From: an uncultured Modestobacter sp.
Lineage (GTDB): Bacteria; Actinomycetota; Actinomycetes; Mycobacteriales; Geodermatophilaceae
Length of the DNA stretch: 64,000 bases
Direction of reading: 5' to 3'
NCBI RefSeq assembly: GCF_947486615.1
Contig: NZ_CANKUD010000001.1
Coordinates: forward strand, 124,001-188,000
Numbering within the stretch: the first letter of the stretch is position 1; each line of letters opens with the position of its first letter. A program made the position numbers and the translations under genes. Of this stretch, positions 41,841 to 56,692 are shown in pieces. A model generated the notes under the pieces. That model worked only from the letters and a program-made list of their open reading frames with translations, was not told where the DNA came from and ran no database searches.

Positions 41841-42506
41841 ATGGAGAGCACTGCCCCGGCACCGGCGCGCGCGGAGACCCCGCAGCTGCCGGTGACCGTC
41901 TCGTTCACCCGGCGGGCCGACCCGGCCCACGCGGTGGAGATGACCGCCTGGATCCAGGCGGGACTGACGATGGCCGAGGACTTCCCCGGGTTCCTCGGCG
42001 GTGGCTGGGTCCGCCCACGCCACGACGCCGACGAGTGGCACATGCTGTGCCGCTTCGACTCCCCGGCCAGCCTGGCCGCCTGGGAGGCCAGCCCGCAGCG
42101 GCGCTGGTGGCTCGGCTCCGCCCAGGGTCTGGCCGAGATGACCCGCACCGAGCGGCGCTCCGGGATCGAGGGCTGGTTCGACCCGCCGGTGGACGCCGCC
42201 ACCGAGCTGCCGGCGGTGACCGCACCTGCCGCGCCGCCGCGGTGGAAGCAGGCGGTGACGATCTGGCTGGTCTTCTTCCCGCTGAACCTGCTGGCCACGG
42301 TCACCCTGGGCGCGCTGCTGGCCGACGTGCACGTCGTCCTGCGGGTCGCGGCGATGACGCTGACGCTCACCCCGGTGATGACCTACCTGCTGCTGCCGTG
42401 GGTGACCCGGCGGCTGGAGTGGTGGCTCCGGAAGGACCCCGTCCCCCGCACCCCTCGCACGCGCGGGCCGAGCCTCCGGACGGGGCCGAACCGGCGCGAC
42501 CGCTGA
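41841..42506 (+). CDS. ABM (antibiotic biosynthesis monooxygenase)-like domain with two membrane helices
   Basis: This 221-aa protein has an N-terminal ferredoxin-like ABM/dimeric alpha-beta domain (VTVSFTRRADPAHAVEMTAW, FPGFLGGGWVRPR, DEWHMLCRFDSPASLAAWEA) and two C-terminal helices (AVTIWLVFFPLNLLATVTLG, LRVAAMTLTLTPVMTYLLLP). The last roughly 25 residues are encoded by a copy of the dispersed repeat, so the original C-terminus may have been nearer residue 196. Function unknown. Confidence 0.75.
   Translation: MESTAPAPARAETPQLPVTVSFTRRADPAHAVEMTAWIQAGLTMAEDFPGFLGGGWVRPRHDADEWHMLCRFDSPASLAAWEASPQRRWWLGSAQGLAEMTRTERRSGIEGWFDPPVDAATELPAVTAPAAPPRWKQAVTIWLVFFPLNLLATVTLGALLADVHVVLRVAAMTLTLTPVMTYLLLPWVTRRLEWWLRKDPVPRTPRTRGPSLRTGPNRRDR
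42430..42486. repeat. Dispersed hairpin repeat, copy E, inside a coding C-terminus
   Basis: AAGGACCCCGTCC begins at 42431; CCCCGTCC (42436-42443) pairs with GGACGGGG (42477-42484). The middle CCCCGCACCCCTCGCAC matches copies B and D. Unlike the others it lies within the ABM gene frame. Confidence 0.5.
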
Positions 42507-48573: not shown

Positions 48574-48888
48574 AGCCGCACGGTCCGGCTGCCCGACGCG
48601 ACGTCGCTGCCGGATGAGGCGGTGATCAGCGCGGTGACGCTGGCCGAGCTGTCAGTGGGCCCACACGTCGCCCAGACGACGAGGGAACGGGTGGCCCGTC
48701 AGGCTCACCTCCAGCAGGCTGCCTCGCTGCGGGAGCGCCGGCCGGAAGCCGGCCGCCCGCGCCTACGACGCACTGATCGCTGCGGCCGCTCCGGCGGAGG
48801 GTGTGCCGCTCTGCACCTGCAACCCGGACGACCTCGCCGGGATCGACGACCTCGACGTGCGCGCCGTCCCGCATCTGGACCGTTCGTG
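48574..48888 (+). pseudogene. VapC-type PIN-domain toxin remnant
   Basis: One frame gives LPDEAVISAVTLAELSVGPH then VAQTTRERVARQAHLQQA, a core of VapC PIN toxins. After a deletion and a frameshift the C-terminal part follows (GRKPAARAYDALIAA, PLCTCNPDDLAGIDDLDVRA VPH). The N-terminal strand with the first catalytic Asp and the segment between LQQA and the second acidic cluster are missing. No vapB antitoxin is recognisable upstream. Confidence 0.75.
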
Positions 48889-48971
48889 GGCAAGGGCCGG
48901 CCGATCGTGTCGGTGGCTGCGTCTAGCGTGCGCGCTGTCGCACCAGTCGCCGACCAGCAGGGGAGACCGTC

Positions 48972-49526
48972 ATGACCACGCTGCCCGATCGACCGAACAC
49001 CGCCCTGGTCGTCATCGACGTCCAGCAGGGCGTGGTGGCCGAGGCGCCCCGGCGCGACCAGGTGGTCGGCAGCATCAGCTCGCTGGTCGACCGGGCGCGC
49101 GGCGAGGGCGTGCCGGTGGTCTGGGTGCAGCACTCCGACGACGAGCTGCTGCGGGGGAGTGACGACTGGCAGTACGTGCCCGAACTGGTCCGCGCGGAGT
49201 CCGAGCCGCTGGTGCACAAGTCCTTCGGCGACTCCTTCGAGGGCACCGACCTGGAGAGCGTGCTCGCCGCTGCCGGCGTCGGCCGGCTGGTCGTGGCCGG
49301 CGCCGAGTCCGATGCCTGCATCAGGTCGACCATCCACGGGGCGTTCACCCGCGGCTACGACGTGACGCTGGTCGGCGACGCGCACACGGCGGGGGACAAG
49401 AGCGCCTGGGGTGCGCCGCCGGCCGAGCAGGTCATCGCGCACACCAACCTGTACTGGCAGTTCCAGGCGGCTCCCGGTCGCACCGCGGCCGTCGTCGACG
49501 CCGAAGCGGTCACCTTCAGCGGCTGA
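48972..49526 (+). CDS. Isochorismatase-fold cysteine hydrolase
   Basis: This 184-aa protein has the catalytic triad pattern: Asp in ALVVIDVQQGVV (about residue 16), Lys in EPLVHKSFGDSF, and Cys in VAGAESDACIRSTIHGAF. The C-terminal HTNLYWQF is common in the nicotinamidase-like unknown-function group. ATG 48972 is preceded by AGGGGAGACC. Possible substrates include amides of nicotinamide or ureido type; none can be named. Confidence 0.87.
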   Translation: MTTLPDRPNTALVVIDVQQGVVAEAPRRDQVVGSISSLVDRARGEGVPVVWVQHSDDELLRGSDDWQYVPELVRAESEPLVHKSFGDSFEGTDLESVLAAAGVGRLVVAGAESDACIRSTIHGAFTRGYDVTLVGDAHTAGDKSAWGAPPAEQVIAHTNLYWQFQAAPGRTAAVVDAEAVTFSG

Positions 49527-49635
49527 GGGCGCCTCCCGACGCCGTCAGGGCCCAGTGCCGGTGCGGGTGGCCCGTGCCCACGCGCGAGGCTGCTCTCCGG
49601 CAGGGGAGTCGAGCCGGCGCAGGGGAGCAGGCCGG

Positions 49636-50058
49636 TCAGCGCTCGGCGAAGGCGATGCCCCAGGTCGAGGCCACGTCGGCGGGTTCGGTCACGCCGAAGA
49701 CCGGCCTGCCGTGCTCCGGTACGACCAGGTCGTCGAGCTGGTGGGCCTGGCCGTCGCAGTCGAGCACCTCGGTGATGTCGCCCAGGTCCAGCTCGATGGT
49801 CCCGCCACCGGTGCAGGCGGCGAACGTGATCAGGGTGCCGCCCGCCGGCAGGGTCGTCGACGCGGTGGACTCCGTCCGGCTGTCGCCACCCACCGCGCCC
49901 AGGAGCGTCGCGCCCGACTCCGTGAGCGCGTCGCCGGCGATGTCCATGGCCTCGTCCACGGGTGCGCTGGCGGCAGTCTCGTCGCCACCGGAACAGGCGC
50001 TCACGGAACAGCCCGCGATGAGTGCCATGAGTGCGATGAGTCGCGTGCGCCGTTGCAT
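49636..50058 (-). CDS. Putative lipoprotein, unknown function
   Basis: This 140-aa protein has a lipoprotein signal peptide: basic start (MQRRTR), hydrophobic core (LIALMALIAGCS) and lipobox SVSAC with Cys about 22, then a Ser/Glu/Asp linker and a small domain (ITFAACTGGGTIELDLGDI, VLDCDGQAHQLDDLVVPEHG) with two cysteines that may form a disulphide. It lies on the left flank of the dif-like site. Family not recognised. Confidence 0.7.
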   Translation of the reverse strand: MQRRTRLIALMALIAGCSVSACSGGDETAASAPVDEAMDIAGDALTESGATLLGAVGGDSRTESTASTTLPAGGTLITFAACTGGGTIELDLGDITEVLDCDGQAHQLDDLVVPEHGRPVFGVTEPADVASTWGIAFAER

Positions 50059-50195
50059 GCGCGCAAGGTAGCGGCGCCGGACGGCGAGGCGTCGCATCGC
50101 AACGTCGACCGGGACGGGTGTTGCGTCGCGGTGTGCGTACGTCAGCGGAGACGGGGCCGGTGGGAGATCGGTGAGCCAGTGCTCCGATCGCCACT

Positions 50196-50223
50196 ACTTG
50201 ACATAATGTCGATTATCGGCGCG
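50196..50223. other. dif: dif-like Xer recombination site (probable chromosome terminus)
   Basis: The plus strand reads arm ACTTGACATAA (50196-50206), centre TGTCGA (50207-50212), arm TTATCGGCGCG (50213-50223). The reverse complement contains CCGATAAT, CG and ACATTATGTCAAGT in series, which agrees with the actinobacterial dif consensus as I remember it. The arm and 6-bp centre layout matches E. coli dif (XerD arm ATTTAACATAA). It sits in a gene-free stretch of more than 600 bp. Confidence 0.75.
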
Positions 50224-50680
50224 CAAGGCAGCCGGCCAGAAGGGGGTCCGCCGCCTGGTCGGACGCCGTGCCGACCCGGTGGATCGCCTGGTTCCCGTGC
50301 TGCGCGGACGACTTGACGACGACTCGGGTCCGCGCCGCCCGGCGGTCGCCTGACTCGACGACGGCGCTGCGTCGCGCCATGCCAATCTGTGGGTGTCGGG
50401 CTGGTACTGGTGGCGAGCCGCCCACTGTGCCGGACGGTCACCACCGGCCCCTGGACCGGCGGCCGACTGGACCCGGGGATGATCGGGTCGTCTCCCCCAC
50501 AAGTTGATCTTGACCCTCGTGACCTGCCCCTCGGGCTCACCCCGTGCCACCGGCCTTCGGCGGCCCTGGCCGGCCCGCTGACCTCGCCCCCCGCTCCACG
50601 TCCACTGGGGTGAATACGTCACGCTGACGAAACCACCGGCCAAGGGCCTGTCTCGACGGGCGGCCGCGCCGATCCCTTCA
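50224..50680. other. Gene-free region right of the dif-like site
   Basis: No convincing coding frame. The lower GC of patches such as ACAAGTTGATCTTGA (about 50500) stands out from the surroundings. Non-coding DNA of this size around dif is expected. Confidence 0.4.
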
Positions 50681-50686
50681 TAGGGT
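50681..50686 (+). promoter_or_regulatory. -10 element of the small lipoprotein gene (leaderless)
   Basis: TAGGGT ends 6 nt before ATG 50693. Confidence 0.55.
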
Positions 50687-50692
50687 CGTGGC

Positions 50693-50935
50693 ATGAACAT
50701 CCGACGCCCGGTGACCGCCCTGCTCATCGCACTCACCCTGGCCGGCGGACCGGCGACGCTGACTGCGTGCAGCGCGGCCGGTGGCGGCGAGGACAGGAAC
50801 GACGGGACCACCGACACCGACAGCGGCAACAGCGGCGGAGACGACCCGGGTGGCGCCTCGCAGGGCAACCTGCCCGACAACTCCGACAGCGATGAGGACT
50901 CCGAGCGCGACGAGGACTCGGGGACCGACAACTGA
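50693..50935 (+). CDS. Small acidic lipoprotein, 80 aa
   Basis: The signal peptide MNIRRPVTALLIALTLAGGP ends at a lipobox LTAC (Cys about 26). The mature part is almost entirely Asp, Ser, Gly and Glu (SDSDEDSERDEDSGTDN), probably disordered and possibly cation-binding. It looks leaderless. Function unknown. Confidence 0.65.
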   Translation: MNIRRPVTALLIALTLAGGPATLTACSAAGGGEDRNDGTTDTDSGNSGGDDPGGASQGNLPDNSDSDEDSERDEDSGTDN

Positions 50936-50989: not shown

Positions 50990-51014
50990 GATTTGCGTCA
51001 CTGTGACGCAAATC
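50990..51014. terminator. 11-bp inverted repeat with A/T-rich ends between convergent genes
   Basis: GATTTGCGTCA (50990-51000), CTG, TGACGCAAATC (51004-51014) form a perfect stem. On the minus strand it follows the zinc-finger gene stop. The A/T ends could give a short U tract in either direction. A transcription-factor operator is the alternative. Confidence 0.55.
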
Positions 51015-51029: not shown

Positions 51030-51428
51030 TCAGCCGGCCGACCTGCCGTTCAGCCACAGCCGGTCGAGCCGGCCGGTCGACCGGATCAGGTCCTCCAGGG
51101 AGCGCTCGAGCTCGGCCTTGGTCGGCTTCTCGGTGAGCAGGGTCTGCACGTCCTCGATGGCGCAGCGCAGCTGGTAGAGCCGGTCCTGCAGGCCGTCGAG
51201 CTCTGCGCGCGTCACCAGGACGACGTCGTCCGACAGCCCGGCCTTGGCCGTCGCCGACCGCTGCTCGTAGGCCCGCTGCCGGCACGCCTGGCCGCAGTAC
51301 AGCCGCGGCCGACCCACCGACTCCTGGGCAGGCAGCACGTTGCGGCACCACCCGCACCGCCGCTCCTCGCCCGCCGCACGCCGGGTCCGGGACGCCGGAC
51401 GGGCGTGGGCACCGTGCTCTCCCGCCAC
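51030..51428 (-). CDS. Zinc-finger/coiled-coil protein, unknown function
   Basis: This 132-aa protein has a treble-clef-like cluster CGWCRNVLP...RLYCGQACRQRAYEQR (about residues 23-53; four Cys) followed by a helical region rich in Leu and Glu (LDGLQDRLYQLRCAIEDVQT, ELERSLEDLIRSTG). The pattern suggests a small nucleic-acid-binding or regulatory protein conserved in actinobacteria; I cannot name the family. GTG 51428 is chosen because a TACCGT hexamer lies 7 nt upstream, making it leaderless. Confidence 0.7.
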   Translation of the reverse strand: MAGEHGAHARPASRTRRAAGEERRCGWCRNVLPAQESVGRPRLYCGQACRQRAYEQRSATAKAGLSDDVVLVTRAELDGLQDRLYQLRCAIEDVQTLLTEKPTKAELERSLEDLIRSTGRLDRLWLNGRSAG

Positions 51429-51435
51429 GCCAGCG

Positions 51436-51441
51436 ACGGTA
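51436..51441 (-). promoter_or_regulatory. -10 element of the zinc-finger gene (leaderless)
   Basis: TACCGT on the minus strand, 7 nt before GTG 51428. Confidence 0.5.
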
Positions 51442-51533
51442 GACGTCACCTCCGACAGTCCCGGGCCGGACACGCCAGCGCCCGGGCTGGGGGCCCCTGG
51501 GGCACCCTCCGCCGGGCCCGCTGGGCGCCGCAC

Positions 51534-51545: not shown

Positions 51546-52322
51546 GTGCCGGGGTCCCGTTACGCCTTCCTCGACGGCCCGACGCCCGTGGCGATGGCCC
51601 ACCGTGGTGGCGCGATCGAGCACCTGGAGAACACCCAGCCGGCGTTCGAGGCCTGCGTCGCGCTCGGCTACCGGTACCTCGAGACCGACGTCCGGGTCAG
51701 TTACGACGGTGAGCTGGTCGTCTTCCACGACCCGACGCTGGACCGGGTCACCGACCGCACCGGCCGGGTGGAGAGCCTGCCGTGGCGAGAGATTCGGACG
51801 GCGCTGATCGGTGGACGTGAGCCGATCATGCGGCTGGAGGACCTGCTGGGGGCCTGGCCCGACGTCCGGTTCAACCTCGACATCAAGGCCGCCGGCGTGC
51901 TGGCGCCGCTGGTCCGCACCGTCCGGCGGCTGGGGGTCGAGGACCGGATCTGCCTCGGATCCTTCTCCGACGCCAGGATCGCGGCCGCGCGCCGGCTGTT
52001 CGGGCCGGAGGTCTGCACCTCCCTGGGTCCCAAGGGCGTGGCCGCCCTGCGGCTGTCCTCCTACTCGCCGCGGGCTGCGGGCCTGGTCCGCATCCAGGCC
52101 GGCTGCGCCCAGGTGCCGCTCGCGCTGGGTGGACGGCCGCTGGTGGACGAGCGGTTCATCGCCGCCGCGCACGCCCGCAGCCTGCAGGTGCACGTGTGGA
52201 CCGTCGACAGCGAGGCGGAGGCCACCGAGATGCTCGACCTGGGTGTCGACGGGGTCATGACCGACCGGCCGGCCATGCTGCGTGACCTGCTCGTCTCCAG
52301 GGGCGAGTGGACCGGGGCGTGA
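51546..52322 (+). CDS. Glycerophosphodiester phosphodiesterase
   Basis: This 258-aa GDPD has MAHRGGAIEHLENTQPAFEA (HR and E(N)T motif, residues about 17-36), LETDVRVSYDGELVVFHDPT (ExD and HD) and FNLDIKAAG, with VHVWTVDSEAEATEMLDLGV DGVMTDRP at the end. It hydrolyses glycerophosphodiesters to glycerol-3-phosphate and an alcohol. No signal peptide, so probably cytosolic. Confidence 0.92.
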   Translation: MPGSRYAFLDGPTPVAMAHRGGAIEHLENTQPAFEACVALGYRYLETDVRVSYDGELVVFHDPTLDRVTDRTGRVESLPWREIRTALIGGREPIMRLEDLLGAWPDVRFNLDIKAAGVLAPLVRTVRRLGVEDRICLGSFSDARIAAARRLFGPEVCTSLGPKGVAALRLSSYSPRAAGLVRIQAGCAQVPLALGGRPLVDERFIAAAHARSLQVHVWTVDSEAEATEMLDLGVDGVMTDRPAMLRDLLVSRGEWTGA

Positions 52323-52455
52323 CAGGGTCGGTCGACCGGGCCGGCATCCGGATCGCCGCCGCACGACGTCCGGTGACCGACTGGCCGCTGACCGGCGCGG
52401 ACGTCGTCCGGTGCCGGTGCTGGACCGGCGTCCCGGCGACTGGCACCCTGCGCCG

Positions 52456-53832
52456 GTGAGCGCCGTCCCGCAGGCCGACCAGCCCGCTGCCCCGACACCC
52501 GACCGCGCCCTGCGGCGCGAGCGGGCCGGCTGGTACTCCTACGACTGGGCGATGTCGGTGTTCAACACCTCCGTCACCACGGTCTTCCTCGCCCCGTACC
52601 TGACGTCGATCGCCGAGGCCGCCGCCGACGACGCCGGGCGGATCCACCCCCTGGGCATCAGCATCCCGCCGGGCAGCTGGTTCGGGTACGTGCTGTCGCT
52701 GTCGGTGCTGCTGCAGGTGTTCGTGCTGCCGTTCACCGGCGCCATCGCCGACCGCAGCGGGGCCAAGCGGCAGCTGCTGGCCGCCTTCGCCGCGCTGGGC
52801 TCGCTGTGCACGATGGGCCTGTTCTTCGTCGCCGACGAGCGGTACCTGCTGGGCGCCGGCCTGTTCATCGTCGCCAACCTGTCCTTCGGTGCGGCCACCG
52901 TCGTCTACTACTCGTGGCTGCCCGACCTGGCCGGCCCCGACGAGCGGGACGCCGTCTCCAGCCGCGGCTGGGCCTTCGGTTACCTCGGCGGCGCGCTGCT
53001 GCTGGCCGGCAACCTGGTGCTGTTCACCCAGTACGAGTCGCTCGGGCTCACCGAGGGCGAGGCGGTGCGGATCTGCCTGGCCTCGGCCGGGGTCTGGTGG
53101 GCCGGGTTCACCCTGGTGAGCGTCTCGCTGCTGCGCAACCGGCGGCCACGCGAGTCCGCCGTCGTCGGGGTGACCGGCTCCGGTGCGCTGACCGGCGGCT
53201 TCCGCCAGCTCGCCGCCACGCTGCGCGACCTGCGCAACTACCGGCTCACGCTGTGGTTCCTCGCCGCCTACCTGCTGTTCAACGACGGGGTGCAGACGAT
53301 CATCGGCGTCTCGGCGCAGTACGGCGCCGAGGAGCTGGACCTGTCCCAGACCACGCTGGTCTCCACGATCCTGCTGGTCCAGGTGGTGGCCTTCGTCGGG
53401 GCGATCGGGCTGGGCCGGGTCGCCGCGGTGGTCGGCGCCAAGCGCACCGTGCTGGCCAGCCTGGTCGTCTGGGTCGGCGTGCTGGTCGCCGCCTACTTCG
53501 TGCAGGCCGGTGCCGCCGTGCAGTTCTACCTGCTCGCCGTGGTCATCGGCTTCGTCCTCGGCGGCACCCAGGCGCTGTCCCGCTCGCTGTTCAGCCAGCT
53601 GATCCCGCCGGGCAAGGAGGCCGAGTACTTCGGCTTCTACGAGATCAGCGACCGGGGCACCAGCTGGCTGGGCCCCTTCCTCTTCGCCCTCACCTACCAG
53701 CTGACCGACTCCTACCGGTACGCCATCTTCAGCCTGGTGCTGTTCTTCGTCCTGGGCGGCTGGCTGCTGCTCAAGCTGGACATGCGCCAGGCCATCGTGG
53801 CGGCCGGCAACACCCCGCCGGAGCGCCTGTGA
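52456..53832 (+). CDS. MFS transporter of the UMF1/Atg22-like family
   Basis: This 458-aa membrane protein begins with the family motif GWYSYDWAMSVFNTSVTTVF (about residues 24-43) and has about twelve helices, including SLSVLLQVFVLPFTGAIADR, FSQLIPPGKEAEYFGFYEIS DRGTSWLGP. UMF1 proteins relate to yeast Atg22 vacuolar amino-acid effluxers; bacterial substrates are unknown. GTG 52456 is the first start before the motif. The thymidine kinase gene overlaps its stop. Confidence 0.87.
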   Translation: MSAVPQADQPAAPTPDRALRRERAGWYSYDWAMSVFNTSVTTVFLAPYLTSIAEAAADDAGRIHPLGISIPPGSWFGYVLSLSVLLQVFVLPFTGAIADRSGAKRQLLAAFAALGSLCTMGLFFVADERYLLGAGLFIVANLSFGAATVVYYSWLPDLAGPDERDAVSSRGWAFGYLGGALLLAGNLVLFTQYESLGLTEGEAVRICLASAGVWWAGFTLVSVSLLRNRRPRESAVVGVTGSGALTGGFRQLAATLRDLRNYRLTLWFLAAYLLFNDGVQTIIGVSAQYGAEELDLSQTTLVSTILLVQVVAFVGAIGLGRVAAVVGAKRTVLASLVVWVGVLVAAYFVQAGAAVQFYLLAVVIGFVLGGTQALSRSLFSQLIPPGKEAEYFGFYEISDRGTSWLGPFLFALTYQLTDSYRYAIFSLVLFFVLGGWLLLKLDMRQAIVAAGNTPPERL

Positions 53833-54569
53833 CCCTCTCCCCCGCCTTCTCCCCGCTGGGCCAGCCCGTCGTCGTCCCGGCGGCCGGTGACCGGCGCCGG
53901 CACCCCGCCCCGGCGCACCTGGTCTTCTTCCACGGTCCGATGGACTGCGGCAAGTCGACGCTGGCGCTGCAGGTCGACCACAACCAGAGCCGGCAGGGCC
54001 GGCACGGGCTGCTGCTGACCCAGGGCGACCGCTCGGGCAGCCCGCAGATCAGCTCCCGCGTGGGGCTGCGCCGTGACGCCCTCGAGCTGGACGGCGACAC
54101 CGACGTCCGGCTGCTGGTCCGGGACCGCTGGGCGGCCGGGCAGCGGGTCGACTACCTGATCGTGGACGAGGCGCAGTTCCTGACCGGTGCGCAGGTGGAG
54201 CAGCTGGCGGAGCTGGTCGACGAGTCGCACGTGGACGTCTACGCCTTCGGTCTCACCACCGACTTCCGCACCCGGCTGTTCCCGGGCACCCAGCGGCTGT
54301 TCGAGCTGGCCGACGACGTGCAGCGGGTGCAGGTCGAGGTGCTCTGCTGGTGCGGGCTGCGTGGTCTCCTCAACGCCCGGGTGGTCGGCGGGGAGATGGT
54401 CCGCGAGGGGGCGACCGTCGTGGTCGCCGACACCGCGCCGCCGGCTGACCCGGTGACCGCCGAGGACGGCGGCGAGGCCGTGCGCTACCAGGTGCTGTGC
54501 CGGCGGCACTACACCCGCGGCCAGCTCGGGCCGGCGCCGACCGGGCCGGGGCAGCTGGCCCTGCGCTGA
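53829..54569 (+). CDS. tdk: Thymidine kinase (type II)
   Basis: This 246-aa kinase has Walker A GPMDCGKSTLALQ (about residues 36-48), Walker B-like LIVDEAQFL, DVYAFGLTTDFRTRLFPGT and a C-terminal Cys-containing lasso (CWCGLRGLLNARVV, VLCRRHY). It phosphorylates thymidine in nucleotide salvage. It starts at GTG 53829 inside the UMF1 stop (GTGA). Slightly longer than typical, with extra N-terminal residues. Confidence 0.93.
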   Translation: MTLSPAFSPLGQPVVVPAAGDRRRHPAPAHLVFFHGPMDCGKSTLALQVDHNQSRQGRHGLLLTQGDRSGSPQISSRVGLRRDALELDGDTDVRLLVRDRWAAGQRVDYLIVDEAQFLTGAQVEQLAELVDESHVDVYAFGLTTDFRTRLFPGTQRLFELADDVQRVQVEVLCWCGLRGLLNARVVGGEMVREGATVVVADTAPPADPVTAEDGGEAVRYQVLCRRHYTRGQLGPAPTGPGQLALR

Positions 54570-54646
54570 GCGTGGGTGTGCTCACCCTTCCGGGGTGCTG
54601 CCGCCTCGATACCTCACCCCGTGCGATGATGTTGCGCTGACGACAC

Positions 54647-54672
54647 GGAATCTCTTTCCTTCATCTGTCGTT
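54647..54672 (+). promoter_or_regulatory. SigR/SigH-type promoter of rbpA
   Basis: GGAAT (54647-54651) and GTT (54670-54672) are separated by exactly 18 bp, the consensus of ECF sigma factors SigR (Streptomyces) and SigH (mycobacteria). The rbpA start is about 90 bp downstream. rbpA is a known SigR target in Streptomyces. Confidence 0.75.
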
Positions 54673-54763
54673 GACCCCTGCGACACCCCGCACCGGATGC
54701 GTGAGCATGCGGCTGCCCGGGCAGTCCAGGACTGACCACCACAGCACGAGAGGACGGTGTGCC

Positions 54764-55108
54764 ATGGGCGAGCGTTCCCTGCGCGGAAGCCGACTGGGCA
54801 GCGTGAGCTATGAGACCGAGCGCAACACCGCGCCCATCGAGCGGCAGTACGCCGAGTACCGGTGCGCCCAGGGGCACCTCGTCACGGTGCCCTTCGCCGA
54901 TGACGCGGAGCTCCCCGACACCTGGGAGTGCAAGTACGACGGTTCGGCCGCCAAGCTCGTCGGTGGCTCCGAGCCGGCTCCCAAGAAGGTCAAGCCGCCG
55001 CGCACGCACTGGGACATGCTCCTGGAGCGCCGTTCGGTCGACGACCTCGAGGAGGTCCTCGCCGAGCGCCTCGAGGTGCTCCGCGGCCGCCGTACGCGCG
55101 CGAGCTGA
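54764..55108 (+). CDS. rbpA: RNA polymerase-binding protein RbpA
   Basis: This 114-aa actinobacteria-specific protein binds the principal sigma factor and RNA polymerase and stabilises the open complex. The sequence has RGSRLGSVSYETERNTAPIE at the N-terminus, the core YRCAQGHLVTVPFADDAELP DTWEC, and the sigma-interacting C-terminal helix RTHWDMLLERRSVDDLEEVL AERL. Only part of the zinc-type Cys set is present (one CxxGH and one WEC). ATG 54764 follows GAGAGGACGG. Preceded by a SigR-type promoter and followed by a strong terminator. Confidence 0.95.
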   Translation: MGERSLRGSRLGSVSYETERNTAPIERQYAEYRCAQGHLVTVPFADDAELPDTWECKYDGSAAKLVGGSEPAPKKVKPPRTHWDMLLERRSVDDLEEVLAERLEVLRGRRTRAS

Positions 55109-55143
55109 CGTCCGGCCCCTCTGACCGAGGGGAGCCGGACACC

Positions 55144-55179
55144 CGAGAGCCCCAGCGGGACCACCCGCTGGGGCTCTCG
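55144..55179. terminator. 16-bp perfect hairpin after rbpA
   Basis: CGAGAGCCCCAGCGGG (55144-55159), loop ACCA, then exact reverse complement to 55179, followed by TGTGT. It lies between convergent rbpA and fxsA. Confidence 0.85.
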
Positions 55180-55190
55180 TGTGTCCGGGG

Positions 55191-55847
55191 TCAGCGCCGG
55201 TCGCCCGGCGTCCCCCCGTCGTCGACCACGTCAGCGTCGATGACGTCTCCCTCGACCACCTGGCCGTCGATCACCGTGCCCGAGCCCGCCCGGGACGCCG
55301 GCCCGGCGTGGAACGGGGCGTCCGGGGCGCCGACCGGCTCGGTGCGCACCGAGCGCACCCGCACCGGGCCGCGCAGGTGCGCGGGCACCCGGCGGGCGAC
55401 GAACCGGGTGATCAGCGCCCGCGGCAGTGCCCGGGTGGCCGGCAGGAGGCAGAGCAGCCCCAGCAGGTCGCCGAGGAAGCCGGGCAGCACCATCAGCAGA
55501 CCACCGGCGGCGACCAGCCCCGCGTCACCCAGCGCCCGGCCGGGGGCGCGGTGCTCCTGCGCCCGCAGCCGCAGCTCCCCCAGCGCCTTGGTGCCCTGCC
55601 GGGCGAGCAGCACCCAGCCCAGCGCACTGGTGACCAGCGTGGCGAGGATCGTCCAGCCCAGCCCGATCTGCGAGGCCACCAGCACGTAGACGGCGACCTC
55701 GGCCAGCGCGGCCAGCCCGATCGCCGTCCGCAGGCCCTGCCCCCGCCGCCCGGCGGGCCGGCCCGCCGCGGTGCGGCCGGTCGACCTGCCGCCCAGGGCC
55801 CGGTCGCCCACCGTCCCGTCGCCCACCGTCCCGCCGCCCATCGCCAT
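55191..55847 (-). CDS. FxsA family membrane protein
   Basis: This 218-aa protein has the FxsA core with four hydrophobic stretches (IGLAALAEVAVYVLVASQIG, TILATLVTSALGWVLLARQG, ALGDAGLVAAGGLLMVLPGF LGDLLGLLCLLP) and a soluble C-terminal tail. FxsA in E. coli relieves phage T7 exclusion when overexpressed; the normal role is unknown. ATG 55847 (MAMGGG) follows GAGGAGCAC. The N-terminus has a short Gly/Thr repeat (GGGTVGDGTVGDRALGG). Confidence 0.85.
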   Translation of the reverse strand: MAMGGGTVGDGTVGDRALGGRSTGRTAAGRPAGRRGQGLRTAIGLAALAEVAVYVLVASQIGLGWTILATLVTSALGWVLLARQGTKALGELRLRAQEHRAPGRALGDAGLVAAGGLLMVLPGFLGDLLGLLCLLPATRALPRALITRFVARRVPAHLRGPVRVRSVRTEPVGAPDAPFHAGPASRAGSGTVIDGQVVEGDVIDADVVDDGGTPGDRR

Positions 55848-55885
55848 CTGTGCTCCTCTTCCGCCCGATCGGTGGCGGGCCCTCC

Positions 55886-56692
55886 CTAGCGGAGGACCGT
55901 CGGTCGCCGCCCGTCGCGGGCTCGTCCCGGCACGGGACGGCGCACCCGGCCCGGCAGCCGGTCGGCCAGCCGGTCCGCGATGCCCCACCAGGTCACCCGT
56001 GCCAGTGCCTCTCCAACGATCGAACCGCTCATCTTGCTCCGGCCGGCTGTGCGTTCGCTGAAGGCGATCGGCACCTCGACCACCCGGGCGCCGCTGCGCA
56101 CCGCCCGCCAGGCCCAGTCGACCTGGAAGCAGTAGCCCTGCGAGGCCACCTCGTCGAAGGGCAGCGCGTCGATCAGCTCCATCCGCGCGGCCCGGAAACC
56201 GCCGGTGGCATCGGCCAGCGGCAACCGGAGGGCCCAGCGGGTGTAGAGGTTGCCCAGCCGGGACAGCGCCAGCCGGTGCGGTGGCCAGTCGAGCACCGAG
56301 CCGCCGGGCACGTACCGCGAACCGAGCACCAGGTCGGCGCCGGCCAGCGCGGCCAGCATCGCCGGCAGCCGGTCGGGCGGGTGTGAGCCGTCGGCGTCCA
56401 TCTCCACCACGACGCCGTAGCCGTGCTCCCGAGCCCAGCGGAAGCCGGCCACGTACGCCGGGCCCAGCCCGGCCTTGGCCGCGCGGTGCAGCACGTGCAC
56501 CCGCGGGTCGGCGGCGGCGCGGGCGTCGGCCAGCTCGCCGGTGCCGTCGGGTGAACCGTCGTCCACCACGAGGGCGTGCGCCGTCGGGACGGCGGCGTGC
56601 AGCCGGTCCAGCACGGCGCCCAGGTTGTCGACCTCGTCGTAGGTGGGGACGACGACGAGCACCGGACCGGGGACGGCCGCCGGCCCCGTCAC
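55886..56692 (-). CDS. ppm1: Polyprenol monophosphomannose synthase (dolichol-phosphate mannosyltransferase type)
   Basis: This 268-aa GT2 enzyme has VVVPTYDEVDNLGAVLDRLH, the DxD-type VVDDGSPDGTGELAD and VEMDADGSHPPDRLP, and GSRYVPGGSVLDWP plus FDEVASQGYCFQVDWAWRAV. It moves mannose from GDP-mannose to polyprenyl phosphate at the membrane for mannolipids and protein O-mannosylation. GTG 56692 overlaps the lnt stop. In mycobacteria the same two activities are joined in one Ppm1 protein; here they are separate coupled genes. Confidence 0.92.
   Translation of the reverse strand: MTGPAAVPGPVLVVVPTYDEVDNLGAVLDRLHAAVPTAHALVVDDGSPDGTGELADARAAADPRVHVLHRAAKAGLGPAYVAGFRWAREHGYGVVVEMDADGSHPPDRLPAMLAALAGADLVLGSRYVPGGSVLDWPPHRLALSRLGNLYTRWALRLPLADATGGFRAARMELIDALPFDEVASQGYCFQVDWAWRAVRSGARVVEVPIAFSERTAGRSKMSGSIVGEALARVTWWGIADRLADRLPGRVRRPVPGRARDGRRPTVLR

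Follow-up and report, generated by a model that had tools for sequence, protein, structure and literature searches.

Background

The closest described counterparts of the locus studied here include the dif sites of actinobacteria, known from a Frankia alni site and from predictions of the same form for 66 genomes (PMC3025954). In mycobacteria, the native XerC and XerD recombinases excise cassettes flanked by dif (PMC4789726). The architecture-imparting sequences G(A/T/C)GGGGGA and (T/C)GGGGGAG of Corynebacterium aurimucosum are strand-biased, with 856 leading-strand and 61 lagging-strand copies (PMC2830990). The terminus of Escherichia coli carries matS, a 13-bp target found in 23 copies over 800 kb (PMC3330122). 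What is said of these four papers, here and below, refers to the excerpts of them on which we drew.

We analysed a window of 64 kb, that is the whole stretch formed by bases 124001-188000 of the 705-kb contig C1, in a draft genome of 4,698,589 bases and 36 contigs. Below, f1 stands for Geodermatophilaceae and g1 for Modestobacter in family and genus labels; f2, f3, f7, f8, f13 and f14 are other families.

Identification and conservation of the 28-bp site

Exactly where the first-pass annotation of the window had read two 11-bp arms around the centre TGTCGA, positions 50196-50223 hold the 28 bases ACTTGACATAA-TGTCGA-TTATCGGCGCG, in an 11-6-11 layout (Table 1). Which arm is of XerC type and which of XerD type we presume by analogy with E. 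coli dif. The annotation had also seen agreement, on the minus strand, with the actinobacterial dif consensus, and 25 of the 28 bases are indeed identical to the Frankia alni site as given in the excerpt used (PMC3025954).

Table 1 Features at and around the 28-bp site (window positions)
Feature	Position	Strand	Basis and remarks
XerD-type arm of dif, TTATGTCAAGT read on minus	50196..50206	-	sequence, conservation; arm type presumed by analogy with E. coli dif
6-bp dif central region, TCGACA read on minus	50207..50212	-	sequence, conservation
XerC-type arm of dif, CGCGCCGATAA read on minus	50213..50223	-	sequence, conservation; arm type presumed
Polarity-flip interval of (T/C)GGGGGAG and G(A/T/C)GGGGGA	49389..50492 (C1 173389-174492)	.	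flip bounded by a + copy (49389) and a - copy (50492)
Small lipoprotein-like ORF left of dif	49636..50058	-	no Pfam match; alternative start 50097
Dif-linked palindrome 1, core CGTCACGCTGACG at 50617-50629	50613..50633	.	+421 from dif; alignment and matrix
Small lipoprotein-like ORF right of dif, between the palindromes	50693..50935	+	homologues 38-67% identical in 9/14 family loci; no Pfam match
Dif-linked palindrome 2, core CGTCACTGTGACG at 50996-51008	50992..51012	.	+800 from dif; alignment and matrix
Small protein with Cys-rich motif and likely coiled coil (by eye), start uncertain	51030..51452	-	dif-adjacent homologue in 14/14 family loci
Conserved block on XerC-arm side: GDPD, MFS (ATG22-like), thymidine kinase, an ORF that we take to be RbpA-like, FxsA	51546..55988	.	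14/14 family loci

The 28-mer has one copy in the whole genome (4,698,589 bases) when up to 3 mismatches are allowed. Several copies beside integrative elements, which the annotation had named as evidence against a dif site, were not found: there is no second copy, and the 11 tyrosine-recombinase matches of the genome all fall on contigs other than C1. Shuffling the window 100 times never yielded a match at up to 3 mismatches. When the 705-kb contig was shuffled base by base 20 times and one strand of each shuffle was searched, the closest site had 9-11 mismatches; the runner-up in the real contig, searched on both strands, differs at 9 of 28 bases, about the shuffled level.

The 28 bp of dif are strictly conserved inside a fast-evolving gap. 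Among 7 loci of the genus, identity to the majority averages 0.98 over the dif columns, 26 of the 28 being invariant, with a mean column identity of 0.55 in both 150-bp flanks (without gaps); among 15 loci of the family the corresponding values are 0.95 for dif versus 0.48 and 0.47 for the flanks. The gap had been described as gene-free over more than 600 bp. With 50058 as the start of the left ORF it measures 634 bp (50059-50692), in line with this; with 50097 as the start it falls slightly short, at 595 bp.

The site is also present outside its own family. A complete site, at up to 3 mismatches, was found in 39 of 199 genomes of the order, always in one copy. The arm pattern, with any 6-bp centre and up to 2 mismatches, was recovered in 148 of the 199 and in all 35 genomes of the family; the reversed arm pattern, used as a control, matched 1 of 199. 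The 51 order genomes without a match belong mostly to family f14. A single arm pair is present in 32 of the 35 family genomes, and the other three have one extra 2-mismatch match.

Some dif-like sites of other genomes were noted in passing. About 350 bp from its dif, genome G139 carries a degenerate inverted site (C21:88301-88324) whose XerC-side half is exact. Five dif-like sites with four different centres occur on contigs C12, C13, C15 and C22 of G136, two of them within about 180 bases of the contig start. Two sites with exact arms and unusual centres lie 7.8 kb apart in the same orientation in G096 (locus L195, C1:4472001-4486000, at 2468 and 10307), a genome that has a site with a host-like centre elsewhere; this pair is perhaps a pdif-like module. 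Finally, a record titled 'UNVERIFIED_ORG: Bacillus sp. AZ43' (L080) has a Geodermatophilaceae-type dif and neighbourhood and is probably mislabelled.

Position of the site on the chromosome

In the draft genome dnaA is located on contig C14 and not on C1, so the distance between dif and dnaA was measured in relatives. We searched for dnaA in 11 genomes, four of which, the draft itself included, are in too many contigs (G000, G035, G073, G094). In the seven usable relatives, six of them in a single contig and one (G121) in two, with closure assumed, dif is 46.4-50.0% of the chromosome away from dnaA. As fractions of the contig, taken the shorter way, the distances are 50.0% in G194 (same genus), 49.9% in G121, 49.2% in both G133 and G074, 47.9% in G048, 47.3% in G016 and 46.4% in G159.

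The first-pass annotation had named cumulative GC skew and the polarity of FtsK-orienting motifs over the whole genome as checks, and both were computed here over the 705-kb contig that contains dif. The octamer CGGGGGAG is oriented toward dif in 148 copies and away from it in 1, which makes it the most polar among octamers that occur 80 times or more on C1. When its letters are arranged in all 56 orderings, two others exceed 0.80 toward dif, both overlapping CGGGGGAG. The octamers converge on the site, their flip being narrowed to 1.1 kb around dif (Table 1), with a lone contrary copy within 15 kb of the flip, at 42442. The flanks of dif (about 10 kb each) in 19 relatives hold 288 octamers pointing toward it and 13 pointing away. 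In G194, for 100 of the 154 places of GCGGGGGAGC, the flip falls between 111,346 and 124,540, an interval that includes dif (114,973); one of these 100 places, near 928,523, is contrary. The KOPS of E. coli was rejected as such, since GGGCAGGG and GGGTAGGG have no polarity on this contig; GGGGAGGG is polar.

The skew check gave a divided answer. The purine skew of C1 peaks at 169751, 4.4 kb from dif, but the cumulative GC skew forms a broad plateau from about 150 to 340 kb that peaks at 258121, which puts it 84 kb or 1.8% of the genome away from dif, and the keto skew peaks at 428823, 255 kb away. Given this plateau and the distance of its maximum, GC skew was rejected as a locator of dif.

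On the origin side, where dnaN and parB adjoin dnaA as usual, the octamers of G194 flip between 2,121,097 and 2,124,539, about 103 kb from dnaA (2,227,353) on the parB side, and the GC-skew minimum of that stretch is at 2,108,728. In G159 the flip lies at about 4.206-4.219 Mb, 78-92 kb from dnaA, with the GC-skew minimum at 4,202,319. The octamer picture and GC skew agree in these two genomes, and they disagree in G074 and on C14. The G074 flip was not bracketed in the 140 kb before dnaA, where 31 of 33 motifs share one polarity, and GC skew reaches its lowest point in the stretch 5 kb away from dnaA; on C14 all 9 motifs left of dnaA share one polarity and the GC-skew minimum is 17 kb beyond dnaA. 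The minimum of G048 is at dnaA, and G016, G121 and G133 show few motifs, mixed or contrary. Taking the origin-side flips as the starting point, the distance to dif comes to 47.5% of the chromosome in G194 and to about 48% in G159.

The genome encodes an XerD (335.1 bits, cut-off 329.6, in a profile search), an XerC candidate for which XerC is the best-scoring model (287.9 bits, under the cut-off of 335.15) and an FtsK with gamma domain (FtsK-gamma 87.5 bits). Taken together, the sequence match, single copy, strict conservation, octamer convergence, position roughly opposite dnaA in relatives and presence of genes for XerD, an XerC candidate and FtsK with gamma domain indicate that the 28-bp site is almost certainly the chromosome dimer resolution site dif of this Modestobacter (Geodermatophilaceae) chromosome. 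On the other side of the balance are the GC and keto skews, the below-cut-off score of the XerC candidate and the 51 order genomes with no match to the arm pattern. The terminus proposed from the letters of the window is supported by the single copy, the octamers and the dnaA distances. As dif, the site is ordinary. By analogy with the E. coli system, XerC would bind CGCGCCGATAA and XerD TTATGTCAAGT; FtsK, steered by (T/C)GGGGGAG-type octamers, would reach dif and would there trigger the recombination that splits chromosome dimers. The site offers a firm anchor for orienting the replichores of the draft genome, and octamer polarity gives a precision of about 1 kb where GC skew is vague.

Genes around dif

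The neighbourhood was compared around dif in 14 of the 34 other genomes of the family. The genes between 51030 and 55988 keep their order and their orientation to dif in all 14, and the opposite side varies. A lipobox rule applied at the N-terminus classes both small ORFs beside dif as lipoprotein-like, in keeping with the small lipoprotein genes announced by the first-pass annotation. A decayed toxin gene, announced as well, found no support: the ORFs at 48622-48972 and 48803-49159 have no Pfam match, a 33-residue piece has no PDB match, and the two PIN family matches of the genome are both on another contig. Rfam and tRNA scans of the 64-kb window returned no matches.

A palindrome accompanying dif

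In a gapped alignment of the genus loci, a second conserved segment of the gap stands out at 50616-50635 (0.81 versus mostly 0.1-0.6). It is a palindrome of consensus TTnCGTCACnGTGACGnAA and core CGTCA-N3-TGACG. Four such cores occur in the 705 kb of C1, and two of them are beside dif.

We looked for it in 30 of the 39 genomes with a whole site, our own included, with about 1.5 kb on each side of dif (slightly less in L026). This sample is weighted, 21 of the 30 loci coming from family f1 and 9 from six other families. In 22 of the 30 loci the exact core occurs between +150 and +850 on the XerC-arm side; the mirror position has it in 1 of 30, and each of 59 other half-site permutations was found in at most 1 of 30. 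Among the named stretches, 59 sequences that contain the 24-base dif core, the exact palindrome core is present in 23 of 50 (those with at least 900 bp on the XerC-arm side) versus 1 of 53 on the other side; identical offsets indicate that these and the order loci share several species, so that the two sets are not independent.

A 21-column matrix was then built from 50 distinct sites selected for an exact core. Its scores separate cleanly at a cut of 20, which was set after seeing them (the top score below the cut, among those listed, is 15.6). With this cut, matches were obtained in 25 of the 30 order loci (21/21 of f1 and 4/9 of the others) and in 30 of 59 named stretches. Of 84 matrix matches 81 lie on the XerC-arm side, at a median of +392, a count which leans toward that side because the matrix was trained on XerC-side sites; the exact-core count of 22 versus 1 is free of this lean. 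Elsewhere, in 1,996,933 bases comprising 1.22 Mb of our genome and origin-side stretches of five relatives, the sole two matches are the pair at this dif.

The usual arrangement is one or two copies at 0.2-0.8 kb from dif, almost always on the XerC-arm side. There are exceptions: L005 carries two copies on the opposite side plus one at +1391, and L099 and L190 have copies on both sides. Besides f1, the palindrome is held by f3 (2/2), f7 (2/2), Nocardia (8/8 stretches with enough sequence), Rhodococcus (2/2) and Mycolicibacter (1/1); f7 may be the family of the last three genera. It is absent from the loci examined of f2 (3 loci), f8 (1), f13 (2 genomes) and f14 (1), from Frankia and Protofrankia (4) and from Intrasporangiaceae-, Sinomonas- and Paenarthrobacter-type stretches. 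Five of the nine order loci from other families lack it, as do Frankia and the Micrococcales-type loci, so it is no general component of dif.

Lineages differ in the gene that lies beyond the palindrome (an MgtE/CBS protein, a solute-binding protein, a PIN toxin-antitoxin pair, or ORFs without Pfam match). In G016, the gene of the Cys-rich protein is 8.7 kb from dif and the palindrome at +397. From these two facts, together with a lipoprotein-like ORF that was not found in four genus loci keeping both palindromes and the lack of terminator features (see below), the palindrome looks tied to dif, of which it is apparently an undescribed companion element.

Possible roles of the palindrome

The fixed half-sites suggest a target for a dimeric DNA-binding protein. 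We know of no terminus-specific DNA-binding protein comparable to MatP in Actinobacteria. Searches of the open-access literature with the literal palindrome strings retrieved no relevant paper, and among the matches listed for MatP, the actinobacterial terminus and the half-sites, none was relevant by its title or the opening of its abstract. Judging from sequence, we tentatively propose that, in Geodermatophilaceae, Nocardia, Rhodococcus, Mycolicibacter and near kin, TTnCGTCACnGTGACGnAA could be the site of an undescribed protein with a role in marking the terminus or in helping Xer/FtsK at dif, which would make it a sparse, dif-anchored counterpart of MatP/matS. Within the 1.22 Mb of this genome that were scanned, the palindrome is confined to its two copies at dif; the question of a terminus protein becomes testable in this way, and for this the companion palindrome matters more than the dif site.

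The small Cys-rich protein encoded at 51030-51452 was considered as the binder and rejected, as it has no significant family match and its presence does not track that of the palindrome: its homologues lie 4-6 kb from dif in L193 and L194, both without palindrome.

The palindromes might instead be operators of a neighbouring gene, for example that of the small lipoprotein, and be inherited with it. In the window, palindrome 1 precedes the lipoprotein-like ORF by 60 bp, and the palindrome was found in 27 viral contigs versus 1 for a permuted control, several copies being close to an ORF start (simple ORF caller), which keeps this explanation alive. We nevertheless judge it unlikely, because both palindromes are kept in four genus loci (L178, L180-L182) without a detected homologue of the lipoprotein ORF, different genes follow them in different lineages, palindrome 2 lies between convergent ORFs, and the spacing from dif is steady at about 0.4 kb (median 392).

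A role as transcription terminators or RNA hairpins is highly improbable and was rejected after hairpin folding and a terminator search. Palindrome 2, between its convergent ORFs, can fold back into a stem with 11-12 base pairs (z -1.97 on one strand and -2.65 on the other), but AAA, rather than a T run, comes after this stem, that of palindrome 1 is weak (5 pairs, z -0.58), no terminator-like site was found, and a terminator need not keep one sequence that is absent elsewhere in the 2.0 Mb scanned.

That the 28-mer itself would be the attachment site of an Xer-using phage or mobile element can be dismissed as exceedingly improbable: 28 viral contigs (L137-L164) do carry both dif arms around variable, mostly non-host 6-bp centres (reversed control 1), but the 28-mer is single-copy in the genome, the same block of core genes flanks it in 14/14 family loci, octamer polarity flips at it, the contig has no tyrosine-recombinase match and the 1.2 kb around the site is unmatched in 72,556 plasmids.

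Three of the dif-carrying viral contigs were checked for their host, and two appeared actinophage-like and one proteobacterial-phage-like. In the 27 viral contigs with the palindrome (L282-L308), it occurs once per contig in mixed contexts. No dif-like site was detected in these 27 stretches with TGACATAA-N6-TTATCG; two AT-rich ones have ATAA-N6-TTAT within 50 bp.

As a whole, the locus is almost certainly best explained as a chromosomal dif with, in the loci tested of Geodermatophilaceae, f3, f7, Nocardia, Rhodococcus and Mycolicibacter, a companion palindrome that is nearly always on its XerC-arm side.

Comparison with known systems

With pdif modules and Xer-integrated mobile elements the locus shares XerC and XerD arms and a 6-bp centre; it differs from them by its single chromosomal copy, without module and without a recombinase gene on the contig. 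The matS sequence, GTGACRNYGTCAC, differs from the palindrome cores CGTCACGCTGACG and CGTCACTGTGACG. It is present in many copies over the terminus macrodomain, whereas the palindrome has two, neither of them more than 0.8 kb from dif, and the rest of the 705 kb gave no further one at the score used; and MatP binds matS, whereas no protein is known for the palindrome. What both have in common is a 13-bp target tied to the terminus (PMC3330122). The octamers are those of C. aurimucosum, strand-biased here as well and converging on dif; having been published for that species, they are not new, and the bias of 856 versus 61 compares with 148 to 1 for CGGGGGAG on this contig (PMC2830990). The likeness to actinobacterial dif/XerCD extends to the 28-bp length, the 11-6-11 layout, the 25 of 28 bases identical to Frankia, the single copy and the terminus position in relatives, with no difference in the 28 bp; what the present locus adds to the excerpts of that study, where it goes unmentioned, is the companion palindrome (PMC3025954).
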